Source: Caulobacter sp.
GTDB taxonomy: Bacteria; Pseudomonadota; Alphaproteobacteria; Caulobacterales; Caulobacteraceae
Length of the DNA: 64,000 bases
Direction: 5' to 3'
Assembly (NCBI GenBank): GCA_028291265.1
Contig: JAQGIK010000095.1
Coordinates: 1 to 64,000 of the forward strand
The position numbers and the translations under genes were made by a program. This document shows, in pieces, positions 326 through 5,099 of the stretch. Position 1 is the first letter of the stretch, and every line of letters starts with the position of its first letter. The notes below the pieces were generated by a model that was not told the origin of the DNA, made no database searches, and saw only the letters and a list, made by a program, of their open reading frames with translations.

Positions 326-377
326 TACCGGCGCTATCGCGACTTGCAGTCGTTCCCCGACGCGAGTAGGAGGCCCG

Positions 378-533
378 GGTGATGACCCTGAACCTGTTCA
401 AAGCATGCAACTTGGGCCGCCCGGTTTATGAACCTGGGCGCGCTGTCGCATGGGCTGAAGGGACGTCTCGCTAGAACCACCTGATCTAGCAACAAGACCG
501 CCACCCCTCCCGGCCCGCCTGGAGGGGATTTTT
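378..533 (+). ncRNA. Putative structured small RNA / leader RNA (identity unknown; 6S-like rod not excluded)
   Basis: Hand-folded helices: 384-386/465-467, 393-395/460-462, 397-400/456-459, 404-408/448-452, 418-426/431-440 (one bulge), 470-475/485-490, ending in the terminator at 504-527. Possible promoter TTGCAG (344-349)-N17-TAGGAG (367-372). Confidence 0.5.
504..533 (+). terminator. Rho-independent terminator just upstream of the RNA ligase start codon
   Basis: CCCCTCC (504-510) / GGAGGGG (521-527) perfect 7-bp stem followed by ATTTTTG. Confidence 0.75.
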
Positions 534-549
534 GTGTTTGGAGATAGCC

Positions 550-1149: not shown

Positions 1150-2526
1150 ATGTACCTGTCCCTCGCCACCACCCACCAGCCGGCCACCGACCTCGGCTTC
1201 CTGCTGCACAAGCATCCCGGCCGCCTGCACGAGATGGAGCTCGCCTTCGGCAAGGCGCATCTCGTCTATGCCGAGGCCAACGAGGCGCGCTGCGAGGCGG
1301 CGCTGATCCTCGACATCGACCCGGTCGGCTTGGTGCGCGGCAAGGGCATGGGCGAGGGCCTGCTCGACCAGTACGTCAACGACCGGCCCTATGCGGCCAG
1401 CTCCTTCCTGTCGGTGGCCCTCAACAAGACCCTGCGCACGGCCATGAACGGCGTCTGCACGGCCCGGCCCGAGCTGGCGGCGGCCGAGATTCCGCTCGAG
1501 GCGGTGATCACCCCGCTGCCGGCCCGCGGCGGCGAGGCCCTGGTGCGCGCCCTGTTCGAGCCGCTCGGCTGGGCGGTCGAGGTCGAGCCCGTCGCCGGGC
1601 CCGAAGGCGAGGCCTCGCGCTATGTCACCCTGCGCCTGGCCGGGACCGCGCGGCTGTCGGCCCTGCTCAGCCACCTCTATGTGCTGATCCCGGTGCTCGA
1701 CGACGACAAGCACTACTGGGTCGGCGACGACGAGGTCGACAAGCTGATGGCCCGCGGCAAGGGCTGGCTGGAGGGCCATCCGTCGCGCGACCTGATCGTC
1801 CGCCGCTACCTGATCCATCGCCGCGGCCTGGCCGACGCCGCCCTGGCGCGGCTGGCCCCCGAGGCGGCCGAGGCGATTCTGCCGGGCGAGCCGCGGCAGA
1901 CCCGCGAGGACCAGCTGGAGGCGCCGATCAAGCTCAATGACGCCCGCATGCTGGCCGTGGCGGTGGCGCTGGAAGCGACCGGGGCCCGGGCCGTCGCCGA
2001 CCTCGGCTGCGGCGAGGGCAAGCTGCTGCGCCAGCTGGTCAAGACCCGCTGGGCCGAACGGCTGATCGGGCTCGACGCCGGCCTGCGCGATCTCGAATGG
2101 GCGGCCAGGCGCCTGAAGTTGAACGAACCCGGCGGCCCGCCCGAAGGCCGGGTCACGCTGCTGCACGGCTCGCTGACCTACCGCGACGAGCGCTGGCATG
2201 GCGTCGACGCCGCCGCCCTGGTCGAGGTCATCGAACATCTCGACGAGGACCGCCTGCCGGCCCTGGCCCAGGTGGTGTTCGGCCAGGCGCGGCCCGGCGC
2301 CGTCGTCGTCACCACCCCCAACGCCGAATACAACGCCCTCTTTCCGAAGCTGGCGGCTGGCGCCATGCGCCATCCCGACCATCGTTTCGAGTGGACGCGG
2401 GCCCAGTTCCGGGACTGGGCGGCGGGCATCGAGCGCGACTTCGGCTACCGCGCCGTCTTCAGCGACATCGGCGAGGTCCACCCGGAGCTCGGCGCCCCCA
2501 CCCAGATGGCGGTGCTGACCCGATGA
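1150..2526 (+). CDS. hen1: 3'-terminal RNA ribose 2'-O-methyltransferase Hen1
   Basis: N-terminus MYLSLATTHQPATDLGFLLHKHPGRLHEMELAFGKAHLVYAEA is typical of bacterial Hen1; C-terminal SAM methyltransferase (VADLGCGEGKLL) and EVIEHLDEDRLPA. Confidence 0.93.
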   Translation: MYLSLATTHQPATDLGFLLHKHPGRLHEMELAFGKAHLVYAEANEARCEAALILDIDPVGLVRGKGMGEGLLDQYVNDRPYAASSFLSVALNKTLRTAMNGVCTARPELAAAEIPLEAVITPLPARGGEALVRALFEPLGWAVEVEPVAGPEGEASRYVTLRLAGTARLSALLSHLYVLIPVLDDDKHYWVGDDEVDKLMARGKGWLEGHPSRDLIVRRYLIHRRGLADAALARLAPEAAEAILPGEPRQTREDQLEAPIKLNDARMLAVAVALEATGARAVADLGCGEGKLLRQLVKTRWAERLIGLDAGLRDLEWAARRLKLNEPGGPPEGRVTLLHGSLTYRDERWHGVDAAALVEVIEHLDEDRLPALAQVVFGQARPGAVVVTTPNAEYNALFPKLAAGAMRHPDHRFEWTRAQFRDWAAGIERDFGYRAVFSDIGEVHPELGAPTQMAVLTR

Positions 2527-5099
2527 GACGCCCCGACCCCACCGACATCGCCATTCCCGACTTCGCCCTGGTGGTGCTGATCGGCGCCAGCGGCGCGGGC
2601 AAGTCCAGCTTCGCCGCCCGAAGTTTCGCGCCCACCGAGGTGATCTCGTCCGACTACGCCCGGGCCCTGGTCAGCGACGACGAGACCGACCAGTCGGTCA
2701 GCAACGACGCCTTCGACCTGGTCCGCGCCATCGCCGAGAAGCGCCTCAAGCACCGGCGGCTGGCGGTCATCGACGCCACCAACATCCGGGCCGCCGACCG
2801 CAAGGGCTGGATCGAGCTGGCCCGCCGCTGGCACGCCCTGCCGGTGGCCATCGTGCTCGACCCGGGCATCGAGGCCTGCCTCGCCCACAACAAGGGGCGG
2901 GAGAACCGCGCCTTCGGGGCGGGCGTCGTCAAGCGGATGACCGACGAACTGCGCCGCGGCGTTCGCGGCCTGCAGCGCGAGGGCTTCCGCCAGGTCTGGA
3001 CCCTGGGGACCGAGGCCGGCATCGCGGCCGCCGAGGTCAGCCGCCAGCCGCTGTGGACCGACAAGCGCACCGACCATGGCCCGTTCGACATCATCGGCGA
3101 CATCCACGGCTGCGCCGCCGAGCTGGAACTGCTGCTTGAAAAGCTCGGCTACGCCGTGGCCTGGTCGCAGACGGACGGCGAGCGGACAGTCAGCGTCACC
3201 CCGCCGCCGGGCCGCAAGGCCGTCTTCGTCGGCGACCTGGTCGATCGCGGTCCGGCCAGCCCCGACTGCGTGCGCATCGCCATGAGCATGGTCGAGGCGG
3301 GCGGCGCCTATGCCGTGCAGGGCAACCATGAGCGCAAGTTCGGCCGCTGGCTGGAGGGCCGCAAGGTCACGCTCAGCCACGGCCTGCAACAGACCGCCGA
3401 CCAGATGGAGGCCGAGAGCCCGGCCTTCAAGGCGCAGGTCGCCACCTTCCTCGCCGACCTGCGCAGCCACGTCTGGCTGGACGGCGGCCGGCTGGCCGTC
3501 GCCCACGCCGGCCTCAAGGAAGAGATGATCGGCCGCGGCTCCGGCGCCGTGCGCGAGTTCGCCCTCTATGGCGAGACGACCGGCGAGATCGACGAGTTCG
3601 GCCTTCCCGTGCGCGCCGACTGGGCCGCGAAGTACCGGGGCGACACGGCCGTGGTCTATGGCCACACGCCGATGCTCGAGGCGCAGTGGGTCAACAACAC
3701 CCTCTGCATCGACACCGGCTGCGTGTTCGGCGGCAAGCTGACCGCCCTGCGCTGGCCCGAGAAGGACCTGGTCGAGGTCCCGGCCCTGCAGACCTGGTTC
3801 GAGCCCATGCGCCCCCTGGGCGGCGAGGCCGCGCGTTCGGCCCAGGCCGACGCCGACGACCTGCTCGACATCGCCGACGTCACCGGCCGCCGCTGGATCG
3901 ACACGACCCTGCGCGGCCGGCTGGTCATCCCCGAGGAAAAGGCCAGCGCCGCCCTCGAGGTGATGAGCCGCTATGCGCTCGGCCCCCAATGGCTGGCCTA
4001 TCTGCCGCCGACCATGTCGCCGGTCGAGACCAGCACCCGCGAGGGCTGGCTGGAGCGGCCGGAAGAGGCCCTGGCCCACTACCGCGAACGGGGCGTGACC
4101 CGGCTGGTGGCGCAGGAGAAGCACATGGGCTCGCGGGCGGTCATCGCCCTCTGCCGCGACGCCGCCGCCGCCCGGGCGCGCTTCGGCGGCATGGCCGGCG
4201 AGGCCGGCCAGATCTGGACCCGCACCGGCCGCGCCTTCTTCGGCGACGCGGCCATGACCGAAGGCCTGCTCGCCCGCCTGCGCGGGGCCGTCGAGGCCGC
4301 CGGCCTGTGGGAGGAGCTGGCCACCGACTGGCTGCTGCTCGACGCCGAGATCATGCCCTGGTCGGCCAAGGCCGGCGCCCTGATCGAGGCCCAGTACGCC
4401 CCGGTCGCCGCCTCTTCCGTGGCCGGGCTGAACGCCGGCGCGCAGGCCCTGCGCCGCGCCGCCGCCCTCAACCCGGAAGCCGCCGCCCTGGCCACCCGCT
4501 TCGAGGATCGCGCCGCCCGCGCCGCCCTCTACGGCAAGGCCTGGGCCCCCTATGTCTGGCCGGTCGGCGGGGTGGAGGATCTCAAGGTCGCCCCCTTCCA
4601 TCTGCTGGCCAGCGAGGGCCGGGTCTGGTTCGACCAGGACCACCTGACCCACATGGCCATCGCCGATCGCCTGGCCGCGACCGGCGACGCGGTCATCGCC
4701 GCGACCCGCTGGCGCGTCGTCGAGCTGGGCGACGAGGCCAGTTGCGCCGACGCGGTCGCCTGGTGGGAGGCGCTGACCGCCGCCGGCGGCGAGGGCATGG
4801 TGATCAAGCCGCTCGACTTCGTGGCCCGTGGCCCCAAGGGCCTGCTGCAGCCGGCCCTCAAGGTGCGCGGCCGCGAGTACCTGCGGATCATCTACGGCCC
4901 CGAGTACGACGCGCCGGAGAACCTCGAACGCCTGCGCCAGCGCGGCCTGGGCGGCAAGCGCAACCTCGCCCTCCGCGAGTTCGCCCTCGGCCATGAGGCG
5001 CTATTGCGCTTTGTCGCCCGCGAACCCCTGCGCCGGGTCCATGAATGCGTCTTCGCCGTGCTGGCCGCCGAGAGCGAGGCGGTCGATCCGCGGCTCTAG
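2523..5099 (+). CDS. pnkp: Polynucleotide kinase-phosphatase Pnkp (kinase, 2',3'-phosphatase, ligase domains)
   Basis: P-loop GASGAGKSSFA; metallophosphoesterase DIIGDIHGC / GDLVDRGP / GNHERKF; ligase motif EKHMGSR. ATGA overlap with hen1. Confidence 0.93.
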   Translation: MRRPDPTDIAIPDFALVVLIGASGAGKSSFAARSFAPTEVISSDYARALVSDDETDQSVSNDAFDLVRAIAEKRLKHRRLAVIDATNIRAADRKGWIELARRWHALPVAIVLDPGIEACLAHNKGRENRAFGAGVVKRMTDELRRGVRGLQREGFRQVWTLGTEAGIAAAEVSRQPLWTDKRTDHGPFDIIGDIHGCAAELELLLEKLGYAVAWSQTDGERTVSVTPPPGRKAVFVGDLVDRGPASPDCVRIAMSMVEAGGAYAVQGNHERKFGRWLEGRKVTLSHGLQQTADQMEAESPAFKAQVATFLADLRSHVWLDGGRLAVAHAGLKEEMIGRGSGAVREFALYGETTGEIDEFGLPVRADWAAKYRGDTAVVYGHTPMLEAQWVNNTLCIDTGCVFGGKLTALRWPEKDLVEVPALQTWFEPMRPLGGEAARSAQADADDLLDIADVTGRRWIDTTLRGRLVIPEEKASAALEVMSRYALGPQWLAYLPPTMSPVETSTREGWLERPEEALAHYRERGVTRLVAQEKHMGSRAVIALCRDAAAARARFGGMAGEAGQIWTRTGRAFFGDAAMTEGLLARLRGAVEAAGLWEELATDWLLLDAEIMPWSAKAGALIEAQYAPVAASSVAGLNAGAQALRRAAALNPEAAALATRFEDRAARAALYGKAWAPYVWPVGGVEDLKVAPFHLLASEGRVWFDQDHLTHMAIADRLAATGDAVIAATRWRVVELGDEASCADAVAWWEALTAAGGEGMVIKPLDFVARGPKGLLQPALKVRGREYLRIIYGPEYDAPENLERLRQRGLGGKRNLALREFALGHEALLRFVAREPLRRVHECVFAVLAAESEAVDPRL

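Follow-up and report, generated by a model that had tools for sequence, protein, structure and literature searches.

A probable translation-dependent attenuator at the head of a Hen1/Pnkp RNA-repair operon in Caulobacter

What switches on RNA repair by Hen1 and Pnkp? The open-access literature that was searched holds no account of it, and a locus in Caulobacter sp. raises the question in concrete form. In the window (the whole stretch of DNA analysed here, 64,000 nucleotides, positions 1 to 64,000 of contig JAQGIK010000095.1), genes for an RNA ligase, Hen1 and Pnkp form an RNA-repair operon with a leader at its head, which sits between the end of comM (325) and the ligase gene (550). Why should such an operon begin directly behind an intrinsic terminator? 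Comparison with related genomes makes it likely that window positions 344-549 are a ribosome-dependent transcription attenuator of the ligase-Hen1-Pnkp operon. Features named below lie on the forward strand unless stated otherwise.

Anatomy of the leader

The terminator (504-533) pairs CCCCTCC (504-510) with GGAGGGG (521-527) and runs into T529-533. Neither strand of the 64 kb has another stem that combines at least seven pairs, six or more of them GC, with a T-tract, and the same criterion gave no occurrences in six dinucleotide shuffles; homologous terminators stand ahead of rtcB and hen1 in other genomes. From its end to the ligase ATG there are 16 nt, which hold the ribosome-binding site of the ligase (540-549, with GGAG at 540-543 and the ATG following at 550). 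So short a distance leaves no space for a promoter, as a first-pass annotation made from the letters alone had already observed.

Upstream of the terminator lies a short open reading frame (sORF) of 30 codons (382-474, stop codon 472-474) that would encode MTLNLFKACNLGRPVYEPGRAVAWAEGTSR and is probably translated. The first-pass annotation overlooked it: the rod of stacked helices that it drew at 384-467 is the coding sequence of the sORF. Its hairpins at 418-440 and 470-490, the terminator, the Shine-Dalgarno sequence and the ATG are all where it placed them, and the minimum free energy (MFE) fold has helices near 397-400, 404-408 and 418-440, while the pairing 384-386/465-467 is absent from that fold. 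A Shine-Dalgarno-like AGGAGG (368-373) is placed 8 nt 5' of the sORF ATG and overlaps a putative promoter, TTGCAG (344-349) and GTAGGA (366-371) separated by a 16-nt spacer, so that it may alternatively belong to a -10 region. The layout TTGCAG-N16-GTAGGA-N10-ATG has exactly the spacing of TTGCCG-N16-CTAGGG-N10-ATG in the hen1 leader of a related genome (G048), and this match suggests a dedicated promoter (344-371), with transcription beginning near 374-378 and terminating as an RNA of about 155-160 nt. In most other leaders a TTATCC-, CTATCC- or CTAACGC-like box stands 5' of the sORF start.

Two hairpins accompany the sORF, both of them better than in shuffled sequence. Hairpin A (418-440), inside it, pairs CGCCCGGTT with AACC-T-GGGCG over 9 bp (z -2.05, p 0.027); its mean z across 33 leaders is -2.03, and 62/69 leaders have a stem of 5 bp or longer there without interruption, with many different stem sequences. 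Hairpin C (470-490) pairs GCUAGA (470-475) with UCUAGC (485-490) and overlaps the sORF stop codon (z -3.33, p 0.007). A post-stop hairpin occurs at the matching place in many relatives, with a mean z of -0.94.

The same module in other genomes

These parts, sORF, in-ORF hairpin, usually a post-stop hairpin, and terminator, make up a module that recurs elsewhere. A blastn search with 330-560 matched other Caulobacteraceae in the terminator stretch only; six of the matches lie directly 5' of rtcB and one (G048) directly 5' of hen1, and each of these seven terminators is preceded by an sORF of about 30 codons. A further match (L007) is an ordinary gene end. Relatives of the ligase are scarce (two other genomes among 200 of Caulobacteraceae, and none passing when the protein served as bait against GTDB genomes), so Hen1 and RtcB were taken as baits instead.

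The module stands at 22 of the 24 rtcB loci inspected in Caulobacteraceae. One exception (L085) has a pair of Ro60 and helix-turn-helix (HTH) genes upstream; at the other (L087, genome G069) an sORF encoding MTLNHLQSQMNYPRSSKLDRARSAALRMEGLI is present upstream and a clear terminator was not seen. In a further set of loci with an RtcB motif, partly overlapping the first, terminator and sORF were found at 45/46. Taking all distinct leaders together, 69/69 have an ORF 26-34 codons long whose end lies 24-42 nt 5' of the terminator, against 3.2 expected from dinucleotide shuffles, a figure to be read with the fact that many of the 69 were picked with the ORF in view, 22/24 and 45/46 being the cleaner counts. 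The window sORF, with its 30 codons and a 29-nt gap to the terminator, lies within the limits of the rtcB-leader family. Substitutions are spread about evenly over the three codon positions, the synonymous fraction is 0.300 against 0.263 by chance, and a codon-position test for peptide conservation in the leaders gave no clear signal. Frame and stop thus appear to be kept while the peptide drifts, and for want of a codon-position signal we take translation itself, rather than the peptide, to be what matters.

The module also stands ahead of hen1, in two relatives or more. Besides G048, a second hen1 leader was found in relatives (G821; 72.6 bits with the second covariance model described below; peptide MTISINPLRVLNRPGFKAECERTRVEGLPG). 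Phenylobacterium deserti has a weaker match of 24 bits that is a probable hen1 leader, with the peptide MQSVHFPRVILNRPGSQVEQERSRAEG and a hairpin followed by CCCCCCTT, not a clean U-tract; it is the lone plausible leader case among 59 hen1 loci from GTDB genomes. Another alphaproteobacterium (G506; L032, about 850-951) has a strong hairpin, GCCCCTCCGGGCGCCCGGAGGGGC and then CTTTCTTT, directly 5' of hen1, with no obvious sORF.

Within the genus, hen1 occurs in seven genomes, three of which (the window's own, G048 and G821) have the attenuator leader. In the other four (G065, G117, G819 and G195) hen1 is preceded by a gene of the Ro60/VWA type and by a small HTH gene, the HTH call being made by pattern in three and by eye, one residue off, in G065; no leader match was found upstream of hen1 in G065 and G117. 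The two arrangements are mutually exclusive across these loci (3 vs 4 of 7). The loci at which Ro60 (TROVE/VWA) and a small Cro-like HTH gene precede a leaderless repair gene are L015, L019, L282, L283 and L021 for hen1, and L085 for rtcB; on L021 both TROVE and HTH were checked with Pfam. From their distribution, the leader and the Ro60/HTH pair seem to substitute for each other at the same repair genes.

Could the terminator instead mark the 3' end of comM, with no more than an untranslated tail in front of it, and the operon depend on readthrough or on another promoter? The end of comM (325) lies 180 nt 5' of the terminator, and comM also precedes the module in G048. However, five comM relatives in the same genus that lack hen1 have no module downstream of comM, which assigns the module to the repair operon; ahead of rtcB, hen1 (G821) and exporter genes the module has other upstream neighbours; and in the window an sORF and a promoter-like site intervene between comM and the terminator. 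The absence of the module at comM genes without hen1 led us to reject this reading, which we regard as unlikely.

Covariance models gave a further view of the family. The first was built from 23 rtcB leaders, with the window and the G048 hen1 leader excluded. In the 4.35 Mb of the window's own genome, a 94% complete draft in which rtcB was not detected, its top match is window 406-539 (32.4 bits; runner-up 22.1), and in G048 it ranks the rtcB leader first (92.0 bits) and the hen1 leader second (54.5). The second model also includes the window and G048 hen1 leaders. A class-wide scan outside Caulobacteraceae gave nothing above 38 bits and no convincing leader. Matches at L140, L141, L144-L152, L158, L159, L196 and L198-L201 were set aside as gene ends with terminators or unconvincing leaders.

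Both models also led to exporter genes. A leader precedes a MATE exporter in five genomes (L192, L193, L194, L195 and L197; second model; Pfam MatE on L192), its anatomy being that of the others and the end of its peptide, TACAREEFA, being conserved. A LysE-type exporter is preceded by a leader at L191 (second model; Pfam LysE on that locus), and L142 and L143 are similar (first model), their peptide ...GRPVxAGRxV...VWEG resembling that of the window. To judge by their layout, the exporter leaders are variants of the rtcB/hen1 module. At L154 a leader of the rtcB type stands 5' of a small gene of 61 aa (MKRARKKHDRPPSL...), family unassigned, which has a DUF1127 look by eye and no such Pfam match. 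That relatives have the same architecture before rtcB, hen1 and exporter genes, together with the lack of room for a promoter, supports the control by attenuation or readthrough that the first-pass annotation had offered as one of two options.

Competing helices and competing readings

Its other option was an independent small RNA, either of 6S type or one that serves the repair enzymes as partner or substrate; its end just before the operon would then be a coincidence. Any of the readings predicts a terminated product of about 155-160 nt, which would suit this one as well. But the leader matches no Rfam family, 6S/SsrS included, at the gathering threshold, and at E<=5 over 1-1000 the sole hit is a chance antisense match at 811-880; the fold of the whole stretch is unremarkable (z -0.71 for 367-549, -1.74 for 382-536), and what was drawn as a rod coincides with an sORF that looks translated. 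Relatives keep the length and position of the ORF, not one RNA fold, and a terminator 16 nt before the ligase ATG is unavoidable for the operon unless transcription starts 3' of it. We consider a free-standing RNA very unlikely.

How, then, might an attenuator work here? The candidate antiterminator strand is the 3' end of the sORF (452-462, GGGCUG-A-AGGG). In the MFE fold of window transcripts truncated at 516-524, it pairs with CCCU (505-508) and CGGCCC (511-516) and encloses hairpin C, a helix of -16.6 kcal/mol. The final sORF codons of the main rtcB group hold GGGAGGG or similar, the complement of the terminator 5' arm CCCCTCC, and in 57/69 leaders the longest complement of the arm falls 6-30 nt short of the sORF end. 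One group of rtcB leaders (g15) has a changed arm and a changed partner to match it (GGCTGCG with CGCAGCC).

In the proposed mechanism, a promoter just 5' of 382 would drive transcription of the 30-codon leader ORF. A ribosome that translates to the stop codon (472-474) would cover the sORF 3' end (about 455-486), and with it part of 452-462; the terminator would then be able to fold, and transcription would stop with an RNA of about 155-160 nt. If the ribosome stalls early, or translation is missing, 452-462 would be free to pair with the 5' arm and loop of the terminator (505-516), the terminator would be blocked and the repair genes transcribed. We infer from these folds that in vivo the formation of one helix precludes the other, so that transcription would terminate once the sORF is fully translated and would read through when translation stalls or is missing.

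Four observations weigh against this proposal. The antiterminator pairing in the window alone is not better than in shuffles. A test of cognate against swapped antiterminators over the subfamilies was not significant overall (p 0.11). The peptide sequence is essentially unconserved, so that the case for coding is one of frame, length and position. Finally, the 32.4 bits of the window match are within noise, as gene-end terminators reach 42 bits over the 200 genomes; the score by itself is not decisive, and the stronger fact is that the top match of the genome lies directly ahead of the repair operon. On balance, the comparisons leave the anatomy and the leader family well supported, and the antiterminator, as modelled, moderately so in the family and weakly in the window itself.

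Two further readings keep the terminator as a switch and change what sets it. The first-pass annotation proposed that GGAGG (369-373) and GGUG (378-381) pair with CACCCCUCC (502-510) and block the terminator, the leader peptide playing no role. This helix forms on paper (-15.4 kcal/mol), but that from 452-462 is at least as stable and is placed where relatives keep a complement; the starts of their leaders are not similarly G-rich, as the ends of their sORFs are. The segment also overlaps the promoter-like -10, and since the pair at 344 and 366 reaches into it, transcription probably begins no earlier than this segment, which leaves such a switch highly improbable. An attenuator of the his or trp type, responding to a single amino acid or tRNA, would have the same anatomy, but it is just as improbable: neither the window peptide nor those of relatives contain a stretch in which one control codon is repeated, the peptides drift, and the controlled genes serve repair and export, not biosynthesis.

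For the ribosome-dependent attenuator, the signal may accordingly be looked for in the genes that share it: because two unrelated repair systems and exporters carry a leader whose peptide drifts, general translation failure is a better candidate than shortage of one amino acid, and, by analogy with known systems, it could arise from tRNA or rRNA cleaved by a ribotoxin or from ribosome-targeting antibiotics.

The controlled genes, known systems and meaning

The operon opens with an RLIG1-like RNA ligase gene of 185 aa (550-1107; Pfam RLIG1, and a PDB match to RNA ligase 1 with E 1.5e-12), followed by hen1 for the RNA 3'-terminal 2'-O-methyltransferase (1150-2526; Pfam Hen1_L, E 1e-101) and pnkp for the kinase-phosphatase-ligase (2523-5099; Pfam AAA_33, Metallophos and PNKP_ligase). 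An antisense open frame of 715 codons on the reverse strand (334-2481) spans the leader, the ligase gene and hen1, and is probably an artefact of GC-rich sequence.

The closest precedent, by analogy, appears to be PA5471.1-armZ of Pseudomonas aeruginosa, where the PA5471.1 leader of the RtcB-like ArmZ is induced by ribosome-targeting antibiotics (PMC12057347, PMC3516279). The two have in common a short leader peptide, predicted terminators, an RtcB-like controlled gene (rtcB in relatives of the window) and readthrough on impairment of the ribosome, predicted in our case (PMC12057347, PMC3516279). Compared by its published description, PA5471.1 has 13 aa and lies about 250 bp upstream, whereas the window sORF has about 30 codons and is followed closely by the terminator; and the gene that PA5471.1 controls encodes the MexZ anti-repressor ArmZ, whereas the window leader precedes a ligase-Hen1-Pnkp operon. 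The duf1127_1 upstream ORF of Sinorhizobium meliloti (PMC12218461) is likewise alphaproteobacterial, its translation is needed for attenuation and disturbance by tetracycline induces the gene; the window differs in its predicted intrinsic terminator and late-sORF antiterminator. Classical attenuators (trp, his and ilv, including ilvL/ilvIH of Caulobacter; PMC4117421) share the sORF, alternative helices, intrinsic terminator and downstream operon, but the window has neither a run of control codons nor a biosynthetic operon behind it.

Among repair systems, RtcR-RtcAB of Escherichia coli and Salmonella also expresses RNA-repair genes on damage; there RtcR, a CARF-domain protein, acts as the activator (PMC9650030), whereas the window has a predicted RNA/ribosome switch in cis. 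The Pnkp-Hen1 and Pnkp1-Rnl-Hen1 complexes contain the enzyme families of the window operon, and the available portion of their description (PMC4411300) includes no leader regulation. The open-access literature searched reports no attenuator ahead of alphaproteobacterial rtcB or of Hen1/Pnkp operons, and attenuation of a Hen1/Pnkp operon appears to be new.

Taken further than the single locus, the comparisons allow a tentative proposal, to which we give slightly less than even chances. Caulobacteraceae may possess an in-cis regulon for translation failure, in which a fast-drifting test ORF of 30 codons with a terminator has spread to rtcB, the Hen1/Pnkp/ligase operon and efflux pumps; a test ORF left unfinished would report damage to tRNA or rRNA by ribotoxins and switch on its repair, and the device would replace the Ro60/HTH module of sister species. 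Two unrelated RNA-repair systems and export pumps would then be tied to one type of regulation. If this is true, RNA repair would answer the ribosome's own failure, in a direct circuit from damage to repair that works without a protein sensor.
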